Positions 50-34,434 of a stretch of 34,434 bases of DNA are shown here, in pieces (the stretch's first letter is position 1; each line of letters starts with the position of its first letter). A program made the position numbers and the translations under genes. Source of the stretch: a virus. The stretch is taken from positions 1 to 34,434 of the IMG/VR virus record IMGVR_UViG_3300046820_000826; one strand, 5' to 3'. The notes under the pieces are model-generated. The model was not told the DNA's origin. It did not search any database and worked only from the letters and a program-made list of their open reading frames with translations.

Positions 50-73
50 AATTAGTTACCTGCAAGTGCTACT

Positions 74-123
74 GTGGAGCTTCTATTGAACATTCCGTTA
101 GAAATTTAAAATAAAAGCTCCAC
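74..123 (-). repeat. strong stem-loop inside cassette A5
   Basis: Arms 74-87 and 110-123 pair at 13 of 14 positions (GTGGAGCTT...), and an outer GTGC/GCAC pair lies at 66-69/125-128 beyond unpaired bases. It begins just after the stop codon of the 78-aa gene. It may be a transcription terminator or the attC-like stem of a decayed inner cassette. No clear T-tract follows, which argues against a classical terminator. Confidence 0.55.
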
Positions 124-425
124 CGCACCTGTGTTTACATTCCTCCAGATGATGGCTTGTCTGGAAATTTTTTAATGTTTTGGTCATACCATGAAGTGGT
201 AACAACCCAACCATCTACTAAAGATTTTTGCGCATACTTCATTTCTTCCATCATTAGTTTTTGGCTGATTTCTCCATCAGTTCCAGTGGTTGGCTCTGTG
301 CCTTTCATGTGGCGTTCGTGCCTTCTAATGGCAATTCCAAGCCATTTTTTTGCGTCTGTTGTATTTTCCATTATATTTATTTGTGGGTTTTACGAAGCCC
401 GCCCAAGGCTTTTATTTTAAATTTC
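101..425. repeat. 18-bp inverted repeat bracketing the A5 gene
   Basis: The 18 bases at 101-118 (GAAATTTAAAATAAAAGC) recur inverted at 408-425. They bracket the gene at 135-371. The left copy is preceded by CCGTTA, so GTTAGAAAT at 98-106 looks like a cassette-end box. The right copy has lost the matching AAC. This may be the relic of an older cassette nested in A5. Confidence 0.5.
135..371 (-). CDS. hypothetical cassette protein (78 aa, cassette A5)
   Basis: This is a hydrophilic 78-residue protein with no family I recognise. It has a basic N-terminal helix (KKWLGIAIRRHERHMKG), a middle acidic and methionine-rich stretch, and a tail with WVVTTSWYDQN and PSSGGM. The start is an ATG about 105 bases inside the cassette, so unlike its array neighbours it does not use a start codon in the preceding attC-like loop. 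The stop is followed at once by a strong hairpin (74-123). The antisense frame is open over much of the same stretch but encodes an implausible hydrophobic sequence. It is the cassette nearest the shared 44-bp site. Confidence 0.6.
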   Translation of the reverse strand: MENTTDAKKWLGIAIRRHERHMKGTEPTTGTDGEISQKLMMEEMKYAQKSLVDGWVVTTSWYDQNIKKFPDKPSSGGM

Positions 426-467
426 TTTAGTGTTCCAAATCAACATTCTGCTAAATGAACCGCACCA

Positions 468-564
468 GCAGGTAACAAGGTATTTGCAAAATTGCCCATC
501 AACCTTTGTGCTTAATTTGAAGTATCTGCAAGGGCAACTTCGCAAATACCCCACCGTTAGCGGT
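468..564 (-). repeat. attC-like site between cassettes A4 and A5
   Basis: The outer boxes are GCAGGTAAC (468-476) and GTTAGCGGT (556-564). The inner arms at 479-497 and 532-550 pair at 17 of 19 positions around a 34-base loop. Both mismatches are A-C on the plus strand and G-T wobbles on the minus strand, so the minus strand folds better. The site is 97 bp long, within the usual attC range. Confidence 0.75.
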
Positions 565-568
565 AATA

Positions 569-730
569 TTACCCGACAAAACTGAATCCGCATTTGCAAC
601 ATTTAGTGTAATGGTCATCAATATCTACCAAGTCATCACTTTTGCAAATCGGGCAATACTCACCGCTAACATCGGCTATAAGTAATGGCTGGTCTTGTGG
701 TTCATTTATGTTTTCTACTTCTAAATTCAT
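569..730 (-). CDS. zinc-ribbon cassette protein (cassette A4)
   Basis: The product has 53 residues from the ATG at 728-730; an in-frame GTG at 767-769 would give 66. The C-terminal half carries two CxxC pairs (CPIC and CCKC, about 20 residues apart), a zinc-ribbon pattern often found in small DNA- or RNA-binding proteins. The ATG lies in the loop of the preceding attC-like hairpin. The reading frame crosses the boundary box GTTAGCGGT, which is translated as DVSG, so about 20 N-terminal residues come from the recombination site. The cassette itself (556-670) is only 115 bp. The function is unknown. Confidence 0.6.
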   Translation of the reverse strand: MNLEVENINEPQDQPLLIADVSGEYCPICKSDDLVDIDDHYTKCCKCGFSFVG

Positions 731-796
731 TTTGTGTTTATTTAAAGTGAGTAGTTCTAAATCAGCCACTACTCATAGCCGTTTACCGTTGGCAGC
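662..796 (-). repeat. attC-like site between cassettes A3 and A4
   Basis: The boxes are ACCGCTAAC (662-670) and GTTGGCAGC (788-796). The arms at 673-691 and 763-781 pair at 17 of 19 positions (CGGCTATAAGTAATGGCTG against its near-complement). The mismatches become G-T wobbles on the minus strand. The loop holds the start codon of the zinc-ribbon gene. Confidence 0.77.
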
Positions 797-798
797 AA

Positions 799-969
799 TT
801 ATACAGCCACCCATTTACCGTGTTTAATACCAAAAATGACAGAGTTCAAGCCTTGTTGTTTGCCGATTTCTCGAAGATTAACCGCACGTTCAATGGTTAC
901 ACAATATTTCCAAAACTCTTTGCCATTTTTGTTGAGAATGTTTACCTTAAAATTGTTTACTCGTTCCAT
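799..969 (-). CDS. small hypothetical cassette protein (56 aa, cassette A3)
   Basis: This 56-residue basic protein begins MERVNNFKVNILNKNGKEFW and ends in a short hydrophobic GKWVAV. It sits inside the 206-bp cassette 788-993 with an ATG 16 bases from the cassette's 5' end. The stop codon is just before the closing box GTTGGCAGC. I recognise no family. The one-gene-per-cassette fit and protein-like composition support it as real. A longer overlapping plus-strand frame looks like a shadow. Confidence 0.55.
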   Translation of the reverse strand: MERVNNFKVNILNKNGKEFWKYCVTIERAVNLREIGKQQGLNSVIFGIKHGKWVAV

Positions 970-984
970 AATTATAAAATAAAT

Positions 985-1119
985 GCTGCCAACAAATGCT
1001 ATACAAAAGCGAAGCAGCGTTCCGCAATTGAAAGTTTGTGCATCTATTTATCATTTGTGCAAGGCTGAAAGGGAGTGCATCTTAACCCCTGCCTTCGTAT
1101 AGCGTCAGCCGTTATAAGC
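985..1119 (-). repeat. attC-like site between cassettes A2 and A3
   Basis: The boxes are GCTGCCAAC (985-993) and GTTATAAGC (1111-1119). The arms GCTATACAAAAGC (998-1010) and GCCTTCGTATAGC (1091-1103) pair at 11 of 13 positions. The two mismatches are G-T wobbles on the minus strand. The loop is about 80 bases. Confidence 0.7.
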
Positions 1120-1125
1120 AAGCTG

Positions 1126-1761
1126 CTACATTCCGTTTCCAAACAAGCTGTGTTGCTCATAATCTTTTTTAATTAAAATTTTTCCCACAGCACAATTAAG
1201 AATGTGAAGTCCTAACTCCGAATTAACAGCGTTTCTATCTTCCAAACTTTTATCATGGGCATGTTTCCCAGTTCCTACATATTCTTTCATCATTGTTCCT
1301 ATTTCGTTTTTAGGCATTTCAATTACGGGTATTTTAAAATTGCTCCAAATAAAGTGCCTGCCAATTTTAGTGTATTGTGGTAAAAATGGTTCGTAAAATG
1401 GTATTACATTTTCAACCATCCATAAGCCTTTAAAAAATTGGTTTAAGAATATTATCTCTTGCCACAATTTCATATCTGGGTATGTAGGCACTTTTCTTAT
1501 TGCTTGAGTAAAGTAATTAGTTCGGCTGTGAGTTGGGCAAGGTGGTGAAGTCCAAATGATATTAAACCGCTTGTAATTAAGCAATAAGTATTCGTGTGCA
1601 TCAGCTACAATTACAATATCATTTGGGTATCTTCTTTGATATTCAGCAGCAACTTTAGGATTAATTTCAACGGCTGTAATTTCGTATTCATCACCCCAAA
1701 GTTCTCGGTTTCCACCAATGCCACAATACAAGTTTAATATTTTAATTTTTTCTATTTCCAC
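1126..1761 (-). CDS. small cytosine-C5 DNA methyltransferase (cassette A2)
   Basis: The 211-residue enzyme has the core C5-methyltransferase motifs in order: motif I LNLYCGIGGN near residue 10 (SAM binding), motif IV SPPCPTHSR with the catalytic PC dipeptide near residue 75, and motif VI ENV near residue 118. The C-terminal target-recognition region is much shorter than in full-size Dcm-like enzymes (usually 300-420 residues), so specificity is unclear. The start is a GTG; no ATG precedes motif I. The gene fills cassette 1111-1839 and its stop lies 6 bases before the closing box. Phage methyltransferases usually protect the genome from host restriction. It is unrelated in detail to the second methyltransferase in array A. 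Confidence 0.85.
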   Translation of the reverse strand: MEIEKIKILNLYCGIGGNRELWGDEYEITAVEINPKVAAEYQRRYPNDIVIVADAHEYLLLNYKRFNIIWTSPPCPTHSRTNYFTQAIRKVPTYPDMKLWQEIIFLNQFFKGLWMVENVIPFYEPFLPQYTKIGRHFIWSNFKIPVIEMPKNEIGTMMKEYVGTGKHAHDKSLEDRNAVNSELGLHILNCAVGKILIKKDYEQHSLFGNGM

Positions 1762-1830
1762 GCTTCAAAATTTTTAATTAAAAAAAAGGTTTCGTTTTCA
1801 AATGAGCTTTATCTTTAATAACCGCAGCCA

Positions 1831-1889
1831 GCTTATAACAGCACCTAATAAACAGCAAGCCGATTTATTAGCTACAAAACGTTATGGGC
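1831..1889 (-). repeat. compact 59-bp attC-like site between cassettes A1 and A2
   Basis: The boxes are GCTTATAAC (1831-1839) and GTTATGGGC (1881-1889). The stem is AGC (1840-1842) plus TAATAAA (1846-1852) with TTTATTAGCT (1864-1873), which leaves the three bases ACC (1843-1845) extrahelical. Extrahelical bases on one arm are a hallmark of attC sites. The length matches the classic 59-base element. Confidence 0.75.
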
Positions 1890-2184
1890 AATGGCTCGGA
1901 CAAACCAAACCAGACCATCTAACAAGCCAATACGCAAAGCCGTAAAAACTTGGTTCGTATTTTGGTTTGGTTTCTTTCATGTTTGCATAATGCGTTTCCC
2001 ATTGCTCCATAATAGTATCAAGTAAATCCCGTGCTTCGGGCGTAATGCAACCCAAAGTTATTTGTATTCCATCTTTGCTTCCTGCGTAATTAAATCTGCT
2101 TCCGTGAAAGCCACTGCCCATAACATCGGCTAAAACTTGATTGCCTATATTAGTGTTGTTTTGAACTTCATTACTATTTTCCAT
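1882..2184 (-). CDS. hypothetical cassette protein (100 aa, cassette A1)
   Basis: The protein has 100 residues and no recognised family. The ATG (2182-2184) lies in the loop of the upstream attC-like hairpin. The frame runs through the R' box GTTATGGGC, read as DVMGSG, so the first 20-odd residues (Asn-rich NEVQNNTNIGNQ) belong to the recombination site. The cassette-specific part has a WETHYANMKE helix and ends in a tryptophan- and cysteine-containing tail. The TAA stop lies inside the closing R'' box itself, as in cassette 1 of array A. Confidence 0.6.
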   Translation of the reverse strand: MENSNEVQNNTNIGNQVLADVMGSGFHGSRFNYAGSKDGIQITLGCITPEARDLLDTIMEQWETHYANMKETKPKYEPSFYGFAYWLVRWSGLVCPSHCP

Positions 2185-2254
2185 GTTTATCTTATTTTGA
2201 AAGTTATCTGCATTTTATTCGGCAACTCAGTTTAGCCTAGTACCGTTACAATGC
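2116..2254 (-). repeat. attC-like site at the high-coordinate edge of array B
   Basis: The cassette box is GCCCATAAC (2116-2124). The arms 2128-2145 and 2221-2237 (GGCAACTCAGTTTAGCC) pair well, with one extra A on the left arm. The outer box is GTTACAATGC (2245-2254), whose complement contains the stop codon of the next gene. No partner for this outer box was found further right, so the array appears to end here. Confidence 0.65.
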
Positions 2255-2733: not shown

Positions 2734-2866
2734 AACCCCAAAATATCCAATCGATATACTGCTTTAATTCCTTAGCTTTTTGTGGGTTGGTTAGTAAATA
2801 TTTGTTGTAATCTTTTATTTTTTGGTCTAGTGTGTATGTTATAGTGCGTTTACTTTGTTTAGTCAT
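2726..2866 (-). CDS. hypothetical protein (46 aa)
   Basis: This 46-residue protein begins MTKQSKRTITYTLDQKIKDY and ends IDWIFWGFI. The ATG overlaps the stop of the ninG-like gene by 8 bases, which suggests translational coupling. The C-terminal hydrophobic stretch is too short for a convincing membrane anchor. The function is unknown. Confidence 0.5.
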   Translation of the reverse strand: MTKQSKRTITYTLDQKIKDYNKYLLTNPQKAKELKQYIDWIFWGFI

Positions 2867-3452
2867 TCTTAATCATTTGTAAGTATTTATTCTTAATCTC
2901 TATTAACTCTTCTTTAGTGTACTTATAGTTTCGTTTAACTATACTATCCGCTTCTAGTCCTTCGACAAATTCTTTTCCGTATCGGTTAACTAATCCTATT
3001 CTATACGCTGATAAATTACCCGAAAGATACATATTGCAATATGAATTACATTGTGCGTGGCAATTCCTTTCGTCGAATATTAAACCGCTATAAACGCCCG
3101 CTGGGAAATAATGGCCTCCGCTCCAATCTTTAGGGTTATGATTATTACAACTTATACAAGGTTTGCCACTGTCACGCATTCTAATCCACTTTTGAAACAC
3201 TTTTTTAGCTTCTCCTTCGTAGTCTGACAAAGTTTTAAGTTTCTCTCTTAAATCGCTTTTAAATGCATTATCGCTTTTTTTCTTGTTTTTTATCTTTAGG
3301 CGTTCAAACATAATTTTACCTACTTCATTTGTGGTATACCAATCGTAAAGGCAACTATCACAAATACCGTATTTTCTCTTATAGCTTTCTTTTCCACATC
3401 CGTAGCCTTTAGCTAATCCGTTGCCGTGGCAAGGTTTCTTTTTTAGTTCCAT
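2859..3452 (-). CDS. ninG: NinG / Rap-like recombination nuclease
   Basis: The 197-residue protein matches the lambda NinG (Rap) family, structure-specific endonucleases that cut branched recombination intermediates. Cysteine pairs near the N-terminus (CHGNGLAKGYGCG, CDSC) can bind zinc. The core has the family pattern CISCNN, then GGHYFPAG, then ERNCHAQCNSYCN, with conserved His and Asn of an HNH-like fold. It follows the primase-helicase in the early operon and would act with the Rad52-like annealing protein upstream. Confidence 0.85.
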   Translation of the reverse strand: MELKKKPCHGNGLAKGYGCGKESYKRKYGICDSCLYDWYTTNEVGKIMFERLKIKNKKKSDNAFKSDLREKLKTLSDYEGEAKKVFQKWIRMRDSGKPCISCNNHNPKDWSGGHYFPAGVYSGLIFDERNCHAQCNSYCNMYLSGNLSAYRIGLVNRYGKEFVEGLEADSIVKRNYKYTKEELIEIKNKYLQMIKND

Positions 3453-6215: not shown

Positions 6216-6632
6216 CTAAAAATATTGTTGTACGTTTTCTAAAATTTCGTTCTTATCGAATAGAAATTTATCGCAAATAACGTTTAACACATCGCTATAC
6301 AGTTTGTTAAATTCCGTTTCATCCATTTTACTAAATGAAATACTTAGTGCTTCTTTTTTTTGAGTTCCGCTTTCTAAATTAAAAATCAATTCGTAATGTC
6401 CAGCGCAAATAATCAACTCTTTTCGTAAATGCTCGATGTTATTAAACGTTTCTTGGTTTTGGTAGCAAAGATTAATTAAGGAAAAAAATTTACGGTGAAA
6501 ACGTGCGTTTCTTTGTTTGGTATAAACCACTTTAAACGGCTCATTTAGTGGTATTTGTTTGGCTTTCTCATAGTCTGAGTCATAAGCCAATTTAAACGAG
6601 CCGTTAAGGGTTTTAATTAGGTGTAAATCCAT
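6216..6632 (-). CDS. DUF1367-like phage protein
   Basis: This 138-residue protein begins MDLHLIKTLNGSFKLAYDSD and has the pattern QRNARFHRKFFSLINLCYQNQE typical of DUF1367, a family of small phage proteins in recombination and replication clusters. Its biochemical role is unknown. It is followed by a terminator and preceded by the SSB-like gene. Confidence 0.7.
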   Translation of the reverse strand: MDLHLIKTLNGSFKLAYDSDYEKAKQIPLNEPFKVVYTKQRNARFHRKFFSLINLCYQNQETFNNIEHLRKELIICAGHYELIFNLESGTQKKEALSISFSKMDETEFNKLYSDVLNVICDKFLFDKNEILENVQQYF

Positions 6633-9508: not shown

Positions 9509-9544
9509 AATATTTAATTTTAGTTTTTAGCTTTATTGCTGGTA

Positions 9545-9628
9545 CAAATATACGGCTATAATTCTAATTTCAAAATTAAAATACAATTATTTTTAGTTTT
9601 ATAGCTTATTTATAATCATTCTAAATAA
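9545..9628 (-). promoter_or_regulatory. early promoter with palindromic operator
   Basis: TATATTTG (9545-9552, minus strand) lies in the context AGCCGTATATTTGTA, shared with the promoter at 2660. An excellent copy of the 23-bp palindrome (half-sites TTATTTATAAT and TTATTTAGAAT around a central C) lies at 9606-9628, 53 bases upstream of the box. The spacing differs from the late promoters, so its effect here may be the opposite. No -33 TTTG at canonical distance is obvious. Confidence 0.6.
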
Positions 9629-11764: not shown

Positions 11765-11828
11765 CAAAATTAGTAATTTTCTTTAATACTTAGACGTTTA
11801 GCGTATTATTTAGAATGAATATAAATAG
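11765..11828 (-). promoter_or_regulatory. divergent promoter region between phosphoesterase and array A, with operator copy
   Basis: TAATTTTG (11765-11772, minus strand) is a -7 box 21 bases upstream of the phosphoesterase ATG. A degenerate copy of the palindrome (left half TTATTTAGAAT exact, right half altered) lies at 11806-11828, between this gene and the plus-strand array A, so it could govern both directions. No confident plus-strand -7 box was found in the T-rich stretch 11829-11866. Confidence 0.5.
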
Positions 11829-11866
11829 TAAGTATTATTTTTTTGTATTACTTTTTTTTGTAGTAT

Positions 11867-11994
11867 TGCATAACGGATAGGTATTGGCGAAGTTGCCGAA
11901 CACAAAACTTCAATAGAATTACAAATGTTTAAATTAAAGATATAATGTCAAACGAAGCACAAAACGGCTTTTTTGCCAAACCGATGTTAGGCGA
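11867..11994 (+). repeat. attC-like site upstream of cassette 1
   Basis: The outer box is TGCATAAC (11867-11874) and the inner box GTTAGGCGA (11986-11994). The arms TTGGCGAAGTTGCCG (11884-11898) and CGGCTTTTTTGCCAA (11965-11979) pair at 11 of 15 positions, with two of the four mismatches being G-T wobbles on the plus strand. The start codon of the cassette 1 gene lies in the loop. Confidence 0.65.
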
Positions 11995-12289
11995 TGTTTT
12001 TATTCGTGTTTTCTGTGGAGTTTCCATTGAAGATAAGTGTAGGCATCAATTACATCCGTTAAACGAAGTAATACAAGCACAGAAATCATTGTCGTTAAAC
12101 AAATCAATGGACTTTTATTCAAACAGTCCTGACTTTGTTTCTGCTATAAAATATTTGTGTCAAGAAAAAGGTGTTAAATATGAATTTTTCTTGGATGGAG
12201 AAAGTACAGGCAATGATATAGAACCCATATTCGAGAATTTTAATAAGTCTTTTGATTTGTTGAATGAGTTGTGTCCAAATATCGCCTAA
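11945..12289 (+). CDS. hypothetical cassette protein (114 aa, cassette 1)
   Basis: The protein has 114 residues and no recognised family. The first 14 residues (MSNEAQNGFFAKPM) are encoded by the upstream attC-like hairpin, and the frame crosses the R' box as MLGDV. The cassette-specific part is acidic and helical, with EKGVKYEFFLDGESTGNDIE and a C-terminal helix FNKSFDLLNELC. The TAA stop lies inside the closing R'' box TCGCCTAAC. Because the next gene is a DNA methyltransferase it could have a defence-related role, but nothing in the sequence shows this. Confidence 0.6.
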   Translation: MSNEAQNGFFAKPMLGDVFIRVFCGVSIEDKCRHQLHPLNEVIQAQKSLSLNKSMDFYSNSPDFVSAIKYLCQEKGVKYEFFLDGESTGNDIEPIFENFNKSFDLLNELCPNIA

Positions 12290-12417
12290 CGTTTACAGAT
12301 TGGCGATGTTGGGGATTAGAAAGTACAAATGTTCAAATTATTACAAATGATATTAGAAAGCACAGAAGTTCAAATTAAGCACGAAAGCCCCAATATTGCC
12401 AATGTGGTGTTAGGTGC
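12282..12417 (+). repeat. attC-like site between cassettes 1 and 2
   Basis: This is the clearest attC in the window. R'' is GCCTAAC (12284-12290) and R' is GTTAGGT (12409-12415), both exact matches to RYYYAAC / GTTRRRY. The arms ATTGGCGATGTTGGGG (12299-12314) and CCCCAATATTGCCAAT (12388-12403) pair at 14 of 16 positions. Both mismatches are G-T wobbles on the plus strand. The loop of about 73 bases contains candidate start codons of the methyltransferase gene. Confidence 0.82.
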
Positions 12418-13498
12418 AGTTCCTGTTCACAAATTTCCCTACAATTGGAATTTAAAAGATACAAACTTTACAAAAGATAAAGGCAAAGTGTTTAGTTGTT
12501 TTGCTTGTGGTGGTGGTTCAACAATGGGATATAAATTGGCTGGATTTGACGTAATAGGACACAATGATATTGATAAAAAAATGATTGAAGTTTACAAAGA
12601 AAATCATAAACCAAAATATTCATTTTTAGAAAGTATTACAACTTTTGCTAAAAGAAAAGATTTGCCAAAAGAACTTTATGAACTTGATATTTTAGATGGT
12701 TCGCCACCTTGTAGCAGTTTTTCAATGGCTGGAAATAGAGAAAAAGACTGGGGCAAAGAAAAGGTATTTAGAGAAGGACAAGCTGAACAAGTTTTAGATA
12801 CGTTATTCTTTGATTTTATTGATTTAGCAAAAGAATTACAACCGAAAGTAGTTGTAGCTGAAAACGTAAAAGGTTTGCTATTAGGCGAAGCGAAAGAATA
12901 CGTTATTAAAATTTATAAGGAGTTTGATAGAGCTGGATATTATGTGCAACATTTTTTACTTGATGCTTCAAAAATGGGAGTGCCACAACGTAGAGAAAGA
13001 GTTTTCTTTATTGCACTAAGAAAAGATATAGCACAACCATTTTTATATTATGCAGATATGTTTACTGAATTGCCAAAAATTGATATGCAATTTAACGAAC
13101 CAACAATTACATTAAATGACATCAAAGACAATAGTGCTAATGATGAAAAATGCGAAATGACTGATGTAAAAAGAAACATCTGGAACAATAGAATTAATGG
13201 AGATAGTGATTTTAGCTGTACATTAGGGAGAATTGAAAACAGACCAAATTCAATGTTTAACAATAACTATTTATATGGAAATAAACCATTAAATACTATT
13301 ACATCAAAAAAGAATGATGTGCTTTTTGATGAACCAAGACATTGTAATTTTAACGAAAACACATCCGGGCAAACATATCCTAAAGATTATAACTTTTTAA
13401 ATATGCCTTATTTATATTTATTAGGAATGAGTGTGCCACCTGTAATGACTGCACAAATATCAACTAAAATATATGAACAATGGTTGTCGAAGTTGTAG
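12329..13498 (+). CDS. cytosine-C5 DNA methyltransferase (cassette 2)
   Basis: This is a full-length enzyme (389 residues) with motif I KVFSCFACGGGSTMGYKLAG near 53-72, motif IV GSPPCSSFSMAG near 130 (catalytic Cys), motif VI AENVKGLL near 175, motif VIII VPQRRERVFFIA near 215, a target-recognition region, and a C-terminal motif X-like LLGMSVPPVMT. The first 30 or so residues come from the preceding attC-like hairpin (boundary read as VVLGAVP). An ATG at 12350 in the same loop would shorten it by 7. It probably protects phage DNA from host restriction. Confidence 0.9.
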   Translation: MFKLLQMILESTEVQIKHESPNIANVVLGAVPVHKFPYNWNLKDTNFTKDKGKVFSCFACGGGSTMGYKLAGFDVIGHNDIDKKMIEVYKENHKPKYSFLESITTFAKRKDLPKELYELDILDGSPPCSSFSMAGNREKDWGKEKVFREGQAEQVLDTLFFDFIDLAKELQPKVVVAENVKGLLLGEAKEYVIKIYKEFDRAGYYVQHFLLDASKMGVPQRRERVFFIALRKDIAQPFLYYADMFTELPKIDMQFNEPTITLNDIKDNSANDEKCEMTDVKRNIWNNRINGDSDFSCTLGRIENRPNSMFNNNYLYGNKPLNTITSKKNDVLFDEPRHCNFNENTSGQTYPKDYNFLNMPYLYLLGMSVPPVMTAQISTKIYEQWLSKL

Positions 13499-13529
13499 AT
13501 GCGTCTTTTGGAATTGCACCTAACTAATC

Positions 13530-13573
13530 GCTAAGTCTGACAAAAGTGATACAAATTTAATCTTAACCCTATG
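13530..13573 (+). repeat. 44-bp inverted repeat, copy 2: shared leader / candidate attI-like site of array A
   Basis: This is identical to the reverse complement of 6-49. It runs from six bases after the last cassette box (GCACCTAAC) to the ATG of the ribbon-helix-helix gene at 13571, so it serves as that gene's leader. Bases 13525-13529 are also similar to the array B side. The minus strand carries TAAATTTG (13552-13559) pointing back into the array. The same sequence at two unrelated loci, each time between a cassette array and a start codon, points to a common insertion site. Confidence 0.8.
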
Positions 13574-13753
13574 ATAGTCTATAATAAACAAATTACGCTT
13601 AAGATAAGCGAAACGCAAAAAAACACCTTAGATAAATTAGCAAAGCGAAAGGTAAAAGTATCTAAATTCATTCGGGATGCTATAAGCGAAAAAATACAAC
13701 GAGAGGCAAAGGATTTAGTCGTTAAGCCTAAAAAAGTTGATGTTCCGTTTTAA
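13571..13753 (+). CDS. ribbon-helix-helix DNA-binding protein (60 aa)
   Basis: The 60-residue protein has an Arc/CopG-type ribbon-helix-helix: the strand NKQITLKIS (residues 5-13), helix ETQKNTLDKLAKRK, turn, and helix VSKFIRDAISEKIQREAK, then a basic tail ending VDVPF. Such proteins bind palindromic operators as dimers or tetramers. It is a strong candidate for the factor that recognises the repeated 23-bp palindrome. It is one of few plus-strand genes, follows array A through the 44-bp leader, and is followed by a terminator. Confidence 0.75.
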   Translation: MIVYNKQITLKISETQKNTLDKLAKRKVKVSKFIRDAISEKIQREAKDLVVKPKKVDVPF

Positions 13754-19369: not shown

Positions 19370-19405
19370 CAAAGATATAAAATTATTTATAATCATTCTA
19401 AATAA
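19370..19405 (-). promoter_or_regulatory. late promoter with palindromic operator (baseplate genes)
   Basis: TATCTTTG (19370-19377, minus) is followed by only 4 bases before the ATG, so the transcript would be leaderless or nearly so. The palindrome at 19383-19405 (TTATTTATAAT, C, ATTCTAAATAA) lies 5 bases upstream of the box, where the -33 element would be. It also abuts the stop codon of the upstream gene. Confidence 0.7.
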
Positions 19406-29150: not shown

Positions 29151-29186
29151 CAAATATATAATTTTATTTATAATGATTCTAAATAA
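29151..29186 (-). promoter_or_regulatory. late promoter with palindromic operator (protease-capsid)
   Basis: TATATTTG (29151-29158, minus) is separated from the protease ATG by four bases, implying a leaderless mRNA. The palindrome at 29164-29186 (TTATTTATAAT, G, ATTCTAAATAA) lies 5 bases upstream of the box and overlaps the gap and the last codons of the MuF-like gene. Confidence 0.7.
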
Positions 29187-31323: not shown

Positions 31324-31359
31324 CAAAGATATAAAATTATTTAGAATGATTATAAATAA
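31324..31359 (-). promoter_or_regulatory. late promoter with palindromic operator (portal)
   Basis: TATCTTTG (31324-31331, minus) lies 17 bases upstream of the portal ATG. The palindrome at 31337-31359 (TTATTTAGAAT, G, ATTATAAATAA) lies 5 bases upstream of the box in the gap after the terminase large subunit gene. Confidence 0.72.
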
Positions 31360-31363
31360 ATGA

Positions 31364-32662
31364 TTAAAAAGTAAAAAAGGTCTGTCTTAGCTCAAAGTAT
31401 AAACGCATTGCTAATGCATCGGAATAGTCAGGGGAATGACCTATTAACTCTTTAACTTTTTCCTTTGGTAGTATCCTTAGTTTGCCGTCTTGGTCTATCT
31501 TATCCCTTTTCACTTGTTCTAATTCTTTGCTGATTGTGTCCTGAACATCGCTATCGTTACAATTAATGTATAGCTTGTTTGATTGTATTAATTCAGCTAA
31601 TTTATAGTAACATTGCGTTTTTAGGTTTTGATACTCAACTACTGTATTGTCTTCTTTAAGTGCTTTAGAGTTGTTTACAAAGCCTTTACATTTAACTATA
31701 TCAACAACGCCTCCGCCTACACCGTCCTCATCAGCTACCACGTTTGAAAGAGGTACTTTGTGTTTATTCATTAAGTCCTTAATAGCTTGTGCGGTTTCTG
31801 TTACGCTTGATTTATCGAGTGTGAATATTTCTATAACCCTAAATCCACTCCATACAAGTATTACCATCTTATCGCTACCGTAACGAGCAATATCGGCACT
31901 AATATACTTATCCCCTTCATCAACAAAATCGTTAGTAAATATATTTTGAATTTTATCGAAGTCTATTAACCTAGCTGGGTCGTTATCAAATTCCCAATTC
32001 CCATAATATAGCCGTTGCTTACTATTTTCATCTAAAGCTAAAAGACTTTCTAAATATGAATGTGGTAAGTTTGGGTTGTCGGTTGGTAATGACTGTATAA
32101 ACTTTCTTGTTGGTTGTATAGTTCCGTTTGCAGTTGGGATATAAAACTTCGAGTAAGTCCAATTCTTAGCAGGGTTACAACTTCCTAAAATCTTAGGGGT
32201 AAGATTATAATCGTTTAACTTATATCGTATCCTAGACGTTACAATTTGCCACGCCTTGAATGATAGTTGGTTGCATTCGTCTATAAATGCGCCCGTAATC
32301 TCCAAAGACCCTAAACTGTCAAAATTAGGGTCTGCTGGGTAAGAATATAGGTCTTTTAGCAATATTTCGCTACCGTTATTCCAAGTGATTACACCTGTCT
32401 GACTATTATAGTTATAGTCATTCGATAGCTTTAGTTTTGATGTAAGTTCAAAGAAAGTATTTAAGGTTGTTTCTTTAAGTGTCTTAAGTTTAGACCTACC
32501 CATTAGCCAACGGGTTTTAGGATAGCTTTGGCATTGTTCTATAAGCCATAACACACCTAAAGCGGACTTACCACCACCCGCAGCACCTCCATAAAGCACT
32601 TCTTTAGTAACTTTGTCTTTTAGGTAATATACTGCGTGTTCTTGCTTAATAAGTAGTCTCAT
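31364..32662 (-). CDS. terL: terminase large subunit
   Basis: The 432-residue packaging motor has an N-terminal ATPase with Walker A GGAAGGGKSALG near 25-36, adenine-binding-like GRSKLK, Walker B ITGAFIDECNQL near 125-135 and coupling motif ILGSCNPA near 158. A C-terminal RNase H-like nuclease follows, with acidic clusters ISADIARYGSDKMVI near 253 and VADEDGVGGG near 310. It resembles PBSX/Terminase_3-type TerL. Its start overlaps the small subunit gene by 17 bases. Confidence 0.93.
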   Translation of the reverse strand: MRLLIKQEHAVYYLKDKVTKEVLYGGAAGGGKSALGVLWLIEQCQSYPKTRWLMGRSKLKTLKETTLNTFFELTSKLKLSNDYNYNSQTGVITWNNGSEILLKDLYSYPADPNFDSLGSLEITGAFIDECNQLSFKAWQIVTSRIRYKLNDYNLTPKILGSCNPAKNWTYSKFYIPTANGTIQPTRKFIQSLPTDNPNLPHSYLESLLALDENSKQRLYYGNWEFDNDPARLIDFDKIQNIFTNDFVDEGDKYISADIARYGSDKMVILVWSGFRVIEIFTLDKSSVTETAQAIKDLMNKHKVPLSNVVADEDGVGGGVVDIVKCKGFVNNSKALKEDNTVVEYQNLKTQCYYKLAELIQSNKLYINCNDSDVQDTISKELEQVKRDKIDQDGKLRILPKEKVKELIGHSPDYSDALAMRLYFELRQTFFTF

Positions 32663-33056
32663 TTGGTTGTATTCCCGAACCTAAAGATATAACGTTTGTA
32701 GTAACTTCTCCGCTATGTTCTTGTTGAATTTTATCCCCGTACATTTTAGCATAATACTTAGACATTTTCCATTTCAGGGTCTGAACTAAAGTATTATAAG
32801 TTGATGCATCTATTTTTTTTGCTAATAACATAGAGCGATAATCGTCCATTTCTTTCTCTAAGGCTTCGGCTTTATCTTGCTGACTATTTATATATAATGT
32901 ACGTAACTCTTCATTATTTCGTTTCCATCGTCTAAATGTAGGCCAACTAGGAAACCTATTATCAGAGTCTAGTGCTGAAATAATATTTTCGCCTTTAGCT
33001 ATTATTTCGCAAATCTCTACACATAAATCAAAATTATATTCACTCGGTCTTGCCAT
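32646..33056 (-). CDS. terS: terminase small subunit (Sf6 gp1-like)
   Basis: From the ATG at 33054-33056 the protein has 136 residues: ARPSEYNFDLCVEICEIIAKGENI (helix), a helix-turn-helix region FPSWPTFRRWKRNNEELRTL, the central DKAEALEKEMDDYRSMLLAK and WKMSKYYAKMYGDKIQ. This is the plan of Sf6-type small terminase subunits, which form a ring that binds packaging DNA. The -7 box TATATTTG (33062-33069) ends only five bases upstream, so the mRNA is probably leaderless. Confidence 0.85.
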   Translation of the reverse strand: MARPSEYNFDLCVEICEIIAKGENIISALDSDNRFPSWPTFRRWKRNNEELRTLYINSQQDKAEALEKEMDDYRSMLLAKKIDASTYNTLVQTLKWKMSKYYAKMYGDKIQQEHSGEVTTNVISLGSGIQPNETTY

Positions 33057-33061
33057 AACCA

Positions 33062-33069
33062 CAAATATA
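33062..33069 (-). promoter_or_regulatory. promoter of the terminase genes
   Basis: TATATTTG on the minus strand, five bases from the terminase small subunit ATG. No copy of the palindromic operator is seen at this promoter, in contrast to those of the portal, protease and tail tube. Confidence 0.6.
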
Positions 33070-34131: not shown

Positions 34132-34284
34132 TCACTCAATTATAGGGTTGCTACTATCTTCAACGTGGTTAGTTAAAGTCTTATATTCAGCTAAAAGTTT
34201 ATTAGCTTTCTTTACATCTTTTAGGCTTATATTATCTTGAAAAAATATAGCCTTGATTTTATGTTCAAGTTCTGTTGTATTCAT
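34132..34284 (-). CDS. small helical protein (50 aa) directly behind the 44-bp leader
   Basis: This 50-residue protein begins MNTTELEHKIKAIFFQDNIS and continues as helix (LKDVKKANKLLAEYKTL). Its ATG lies at the end of the 44-bp leader repeat (right-end copy at 34282-34325, left-end copy at 6-49), just as the RHH gene does at 13571. It heads the small-gene block before terminase. No family is recognised. Confidence 0.6.
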   Translation of the reverse strand: MNTTELEHKIKAIFFQDNISLKDVKKANKLLAEYKTLTNHVEDSSNPIIE

Positions 34285-34434
34285 AGGGTTAAGGTTAAAT
34301 TTGTATTACTTTTGTCAGACTTAGCAATTAGTTACCTGCAAGTGCTACTGTGGAGCTTCTATTGAACATTCCGTTAGAAATTTAAAATAAAAGCTCCACC
34401 GCACCTGTGTTTACATTCCTCCAGATGATGGCTT
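34277..34434. repeat. right-end copy of the contig overlap
   Basis: This repeats 1-158 with two differences in the first 31 bases (34294 G and 34307 T). It contains the leader repeat variant with AAGGTT and TATTAC, against AAGATT and TATCAC at the left end and in the 13530 copy. Confidence 0.85.

Follow-up and report, generated by a model that had tools for sequence, protein, structure and literature searches.

Integron cassette genes usually point away from attI, although this is not strictly defining, and cassettes can also insert outside integrons, at G|TT of secondary (attG) sites. Chromosomal integrons of Bacteroidota (L110, L119 and L120 in our set) show attC hairpins, R'/R'' pairs and a hairpin distal to attI, with intI beside the array and the genes running away from attI (mostly so in L119 and L120). 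Integrase-less attC arrays (CALINs) are reported from the virulent phages Polaribacter P12002L, Tetrasphaera TJE1 and Pseudoalteromonas PH101, and the attC2 site of P12002L is reported there to recombine with IntI1 (Qi et al. 2023, PMC9892861). The two arrays described below likewise lack an integrase and lie in a phage, and their methyltransferase cargo is shared with P12002L, whose genome is weakly matched by our attC covariance model R1 between methyltransferase genes (E 0.06–0.07). In contrast to the CALINs in the available part of PMC9892861, where we found none of these features, our arrays have a constant attI-like end that occurs twice in one genome, an inverted gene polarity and, among relatives, unit-precise differences between near-identical isolates.

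Like the chromosomal arrays of Bacteroidota, the phage arrays carry attC hairpins, R'/R'' pairs and a hairpin distal to the attI-like end, whereas they have no integrase and their genes run toward that end. As in attG insertion, cassettes enter a non-integron location at G|TT; unlike in attG insertion, one site is used repeatedly, is kept among related phages and is present in two copies. Phage CALINs are already known. What appears to be new is that the cassettes are inverted, have a dedicated landing site and are shuffled naturally; in the literature searched, which took in neither preprints nor most subscription journals, we came across no conserved attI-like ends, no inverted cassettes and no differences in cassettes from one isolate to another.

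The stretch analysed (the window) is the whole IMG/VR virus record IMGVR_UViG_3300046820_000826 of 34,434 nt. Its first 158 bases are repeated at the end with 99% identity, and circular closure through this overlap gives a genome of ~34.3 kb (about 34,276 bp). The overlap (1–158 versus 34277–34434) is imperfect, with two differences in the attI-like flank (aagatt/aaggtt and gtatca/gtatta) that may represent population variation or sequencing error. Tailed-phage genes include those for terminases, portal, capsid, primase-helicase, SSB, NinG and endolysin, and the lack of an integrase together with kinship to virulent Flavobacterium phages suggests that this phage is virulent as well. After closure, array B lies between NinG (2859–3452) and the terminase genes (31364–33062), i.e., at the junction of early and packaging modules where the sequence-only reading had placed it.

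Array B consists of five matched-end units (55–476, 556–670, 788–993, 1111–1839 and 1881–2124), each exact over 9 nt, and the earlier proposal of five adjacent self-matched units was thereby confirmed at every position. Five R'/R'' pairs in region 1–2300 compare with a mean of 0.40 and a maximum of 4 in 500 second-order Markov simulations; the array A region (11800–13600) holds two pairs against a mean of 0.35 in simulations of the same type. Since isolated 9-nt pairs are common genome-wide (19 observed, 10.7 expected), the argument rests on a chain of tandem units that do not overlap and have hairpins between them. Altogether, seven exact 9-nt pairs stand in chains, with R' and R'' complementary within a cassette and different between cassettes. 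The gaps hold imperfect hairpins, as first suggested, and the attC-like sites of array B span 97, 135, 135, 59 and 138 nt.

These sites were evaluated with our own attC finder (AAC, stem, GTT; ~2 false hits per Mb at a score of at least 20), by folding and with R1, which was built from 14 phage sites, 13 of them from other phages and only 1831–1889 from the window. The R1 stem has 10 pairs with a fixed internal mismatch and compensatory changes in 9 of the 10. At a finder score of at least 20, four of the seven window sites were recovered (468–564, 662–796, 11866–11994 and 12282–12417), together with an isolated hairpin at 6519–6618 (score 20.1) that lies within a coding region and is likely a chance hit. 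With R1 at E ≤1 over 282 kb, the only window matches were 1831–1889, 12282–12417, 985–1119, 468–564 and 662–796, so that the model matched attC positions only and the refuting condition named in the sequence-only reading, a covariance model without matches, was not borne out; the matches at 985–1119, 468–564 and 662–796 are weak taken singly (E 0.03–0.6). Folding z-scores are strong for some sites only (−4.1 for 468–564 and −4.4 for 662–796), while some fold no better than shuffled sequence. Across finder, folding and model, the strongest window sites are 468–564, 662–796 and 12282–12417, and several others are weak on folding or model alone. Thus, the at least two attC sites (hairpins with AAC...GTT boxes) that define a CALIN were detected by both finder and model, with uneven support from site to site; an Rfam scan of the window gave no relevant match. 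The proposed CALIN-like array in a phage without an integrase is supported, and with no PF00589 match in the window, and hence no integrase in cis, it is not a complete integron.

All five cassettes of array B have their genes on the minus strand. Cassette A (56–556; pair GTTACCTGC/GCAGGTAAC) combines an ORF at 135–371 (78 aa, no assigned function) with site B1 at 468–564 (finder score 24.0, R1 E 0.063, fold z −4.1). Cassette B (557–788; pair GTTAGCGGT/ACCGCTAAC) has an ORF at 569–730, zinc-ribbon-like and of 53 aa when counted from an ATG in the attC loop, and site B2 at 662–796 (finder score 24.4, fold z −4.4, weak R1 match with E 0.57). Cassette C (789–1111; pair GTTGGCAGC/GCTGCCAAC) comprises an ORF at 799–969 (56 aa, no assigned function) and site B3 at 985–1119, which is matched by R1 (E 0.027) and absent from the finder list at 17. 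The ORF of cassette D (1112–1881; pair GTTATAAGC/GCTTATAAC), at 1126–1761 (211 aa), encodes a cytosine-C5 DNA methyltransferase relative (phrog_363 DNA methyltransferase, E 2e-13) and is accompanied by the short site B4 at 1831–1889, whose R1 match arises by construction from its presence in the training set. Finally, cassette E (1882–2245; pair GTTATGGGC/GCCCATAAC) has an ORF at 1882–2184 (100 aa, no assigned function) starting inside the attC loop, and site B5 at 2116–2253, with a finder score of only 17.7 and no R1 match, the outer box of which overlaps the stop codon of the phage gene 2246–2404.

Array A contains two cassettes with genes on the plus strand. The first (11874–12289) has an ORF at 11945–12289 (114 aa, no assigned function), site A1 at 11866–11994 (finder score 20.0) and the pair GTTAGGCGA/TCGCCTAAC at 11986–12290. 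The second (12290–13523; pair GTTAGGTGC/GCACCTAAC) encodes a C5 DNA methyltransferase at 12329–13498 (389 aa; Pfam DNA_methylase, 1e-46), with 73% identity to a methyltransferase in a tooticki6-1 phage cassette, and has site A2 at 12282–12417 (finder 24.6, R1 E 0.0026). The methyltransferase aligns to its homologues only from about residue 32–38 onward. Start codons within attC loops appeared at first to be general in the window and were rejected as a rule, being true of a minority of sites only; in this minority of long sites, the protein would gain an attC-encoded leader.

Both arrays end at the same sequence, a feature missed in the sequence-only reading. The constant end of array B (5–65, 61 nt, assigned to no strand; crossover 55|56, G|TT) is 95% complementary to that of array A (13514–13574, likewise unstranded), giving two inverted copies of a ~57-bp phage sequence. 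Each copy immediately precedes a phage start codon: 5–65 holds the 5' region and start codon of a small gene, 34132–34284, read leftward across the circular junction, and 13514–13574 those of a ribbon-helix-helix (RHH) gene (phrog_25647; 13571–13753, plus strand), which adjoins the array A end. We interpret this end as attI-like from its position.

The constant end is placed equally relative to the arrays in related IMG/VR phages, and RHH homologues in L001 and L028 stand directly past the array end. L034 and L036 have the common flank AAC|TATTCGCTAACCGAAACTAACTAAGG, and L009 and L015 the common flank AAC|TTACTTATTTGCG, with different cassettes within each pair, and L028 has different cassettes within the gene order of the window (endolysin, RHH gene, array, phosphoesterase). 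The search for the same locus in related phages that the sequence-only reading had advised was thus answered by common flanks with different cassettes, contrary to its other refuting condition of conserved genes in a conserved order. In viral contigs, the flanks of the two pairs matched only their own contigs, and an exact search with the attI-like sequence of the window gave no match, i.e., no close relative was found there. Two near relatives, L010 and L011, have no array; L010 was considered as a clean empty site and rejected, as it also lacks the attI-like segment.

The exchange of cassettes can be followed in Lillamyvirus and Muminvirus, sequenced virulent Flavobacterium phages with a primase 63% identical to that of the window phage. 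The three Flavobacterium phage records first examined have 8 to 13 attC-like sites per genome at one attI-like site. Counting RefSeq duplicates, 46 records match the array-side sequence with at least 95% identity and at least 95% query coverage, and many of these matches stop about at the start of the first cassette. The flank ATCATGTAATATTGTAG|TT was read in all 15 isolate records compared, which were split automatically into 28 units, some of them probably composites. Six different units adjoin the attI-like end and 14 occur in more than one neighbourhood, while the far array end (k7, k8 and usually k9) is common to the 15 records. Cassettes differ between these isolates exactly at G|TT, and their base-precise gain, loss and movement are seen in these relatives, not in the window phage. 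For example, a 439-bp unit that is interior in lillamy9-1 stands at the attI-like end in lillamy9-3, and without it the two arrays differ at 3 positions over 7,041 bp. The unit has a hairpin of its own, located distal to attI; the common order of the remaining units suggests the direction of its move. Assembly error around repeated hairpins may contribute to order differences among the isolate genomes. The main text of Nilsson et al. (PMC7077304) on these phages uses neither the word integron nor the word cassette. These observations suggest that site-specific recombination of cassettes lets virulent phages exchange single genes in nature, a process visible in public isolate genomes.

Gene polarity separates these arrays from the usual integron orientation, in which the ORF runs from R' to R'' and away from attI. 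In the window and the Flavobacterium phages, genes run toward the attI-like end, and R1 matches (plus strand in array B, minus in array A) and genes are on opposite strands. Most R1 matches in IMG/VR relatives are also opposite to the gene strand, with two matches in L029 on the other strand from the rest. In contrast, in the arrays of this attC type that we examined in Bacteroidota chromosomes, the R1 strand is the prevailing gene strand. A home-made measure of spacer asymmetry was rejected as a polarity test after mixed answers on chromosomal arrays, and polarity was therefore judged by comparing the strand of the R1 match with that of the ORF. Because site-specific recombination at attC cannot invert a gene within its cassette, the cassettes of phages and chromosomes seem to belong to separate pools, and the inverted polarity implies a pool specific to phages.

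On balance, we consider it probable that two integrase-less arrays have grown at attI-like sites, their cassettes being moved in trans by an IntI-type tyrosine recombinase. Each array would grow at its own copy of the ~57-bp sequence, by cassettes of one ORF (a methyltransferase or a small protein without assigned function) and one attC hairpin. At G|TT, the recombinase would cut both attC in its folded form and the attI-like site; the circular cassettes thereby excised would return to an array at its attI-like end, pass from phage to phage or be lost. Inverted relative to attC and directed toward the attI-like end, the ORFs would be transcribed from upstream phage promoters as part of a phage operon, with no integron promoter. 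The cargo would most likely alter methylation of phage DNA and so permit escape from restriction in different hosts. An IntI-type enzyme is favoured because the sites have the corresponding anatomy and because a Polaribacter phage attC is reported to work with IntI1 (PMC9892861).

The enzyme that this main account needs was, however, not found. No tyrosine recombinase (PF00589) was identified in the window record or in 15 related records, which include fragments, and no serine recombinase (PF00239) or Y1 transposase (PF01797) in 11 phage records, with control genomes matched in both searches. Integron integrase over the curated cut-off occurs in 105 of 395 sampled genomes across the phylum Bacteroidota and in none of 397 Flavobacteriaceae or 246 Flavobacteriales genomes (samples without LMO6 and LMO9, the isolates' own hosts). 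A serious rival, which we regard as possible though clearly the less likely account, keeps the same cassette anatomy and assigns its movement to a different enzyme able to recognise folded attC: this could be Xer or another tyrosine recombinase of the host, or a phage protein that escaped recognition. It would explain why Flavobacterium phage cassettes differ by precise units where IntI is absent from the sampled host family and order, and it agrees with the fact that, of the genomes that have attC of this type in a chromosome, most do not appear among those passing the IntI cut-off. However, the three recombinase families searched gave no candidate in the phages, and none of ten proteins within or next to chromosomal arrays of this attC type is a recombinase, although LMO6 and LMO9 lie outside the search, and the reported function of a related phage attC with IntI1 speaks for the IntI-type account. 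A broader version, put forward tentatively, is that Bacteroidota phages keep an integron-like platform of their own, with dedicated attI-like sites, a pool of phage-only inverted cassettes (anti-restriction methyltransferases among others) and a non-IntI recombinase. Since the host order, as sampled, lacks integron integrase, which enzyme moves the cassettes becomes a question that is testable in cultured phages and hosts.

Several chromosomal arrays were noted alongside these searches. Our finder detected six attC-like sites of this type in a chromosome (L104, handle G104, L172) belonging to a family without detected integron integrase, and few Flavobacteriaceae are like it. Two chromosomal arrays with this attC type, in Bacteroidota L156 and L163, include genes for a MutH relative and a reverse transcriptase, and that in L156 is also interrupted by IS110 copies.

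The sequence-only reading had further proposed that cassettes are taken from host chromosomal integrons and ferried between hosts by the phage. Chromosomal arrays of the same attC type and the occurrence of IntI in part of the phylum agree with such traffic, yet we judge it very unlikely: the opposite polarity of phage and chromosomal cassettes is the main argument against it, IntI is missing from the sampled host order, and other phages supplied the closest matches to window cassettes (one cassette only having been searched in bacterial genomes). Among PF00145-type relatives of cassette D in bacterial genomes, a clear attC array surrounds the gene only in L054, a 4,281-bp contig of a MAG named Candidatus Staskawiczbacteria with ~5 sites. 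Its polarity is inverted, as in phages, and the contig may be a misbinned phage. The remaining alternative, an ordinary mosaic accessory region of small genes and terminator-like hairpins exchanged by homologous recombination, is the least credible, since it leaves unexplained the 9-nt cassette-specific R'/R'' pairs, the G|TT junctions, the constant end with six different neighbours and the occurrence there of the 439-bp unit, intact and with its hairpin. In its favour, mosaicism is general in the accessory regions of phages, and homologous recombination may well have spread shared blocks such as k13-k14-k15-k16.

The cassettes of the window hold mostly DNA methyltransferases and small genes without assigned function, and the recognisable cassette genes are largely DNA methyltransferases. 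Nilsson et al. (PMC7077304) reported that LMO9 phages without a methyltransferase present in efficient ones plated 3–4 orders of magnitude worse on LMO6. An anti-restriction benefit of methyltransferase cassettes is thus likely, and cassette exchange may tune host range.

Two further repeat families were observed in the window. An intergenic 36-nt family (..TTATTTATAATCATTCTAAATAA), present at 9593–9628, 19370–19405, 29151–29186 and 31324–31359 in both orientations, forms an imperfect palindrome and looks like a phage promoter or operator. Two 80-nt stretches, 2630–2709 and 9515–9594, are 71% identical, lie upstream of leftward genes and are possibly duplicated promoter regions.
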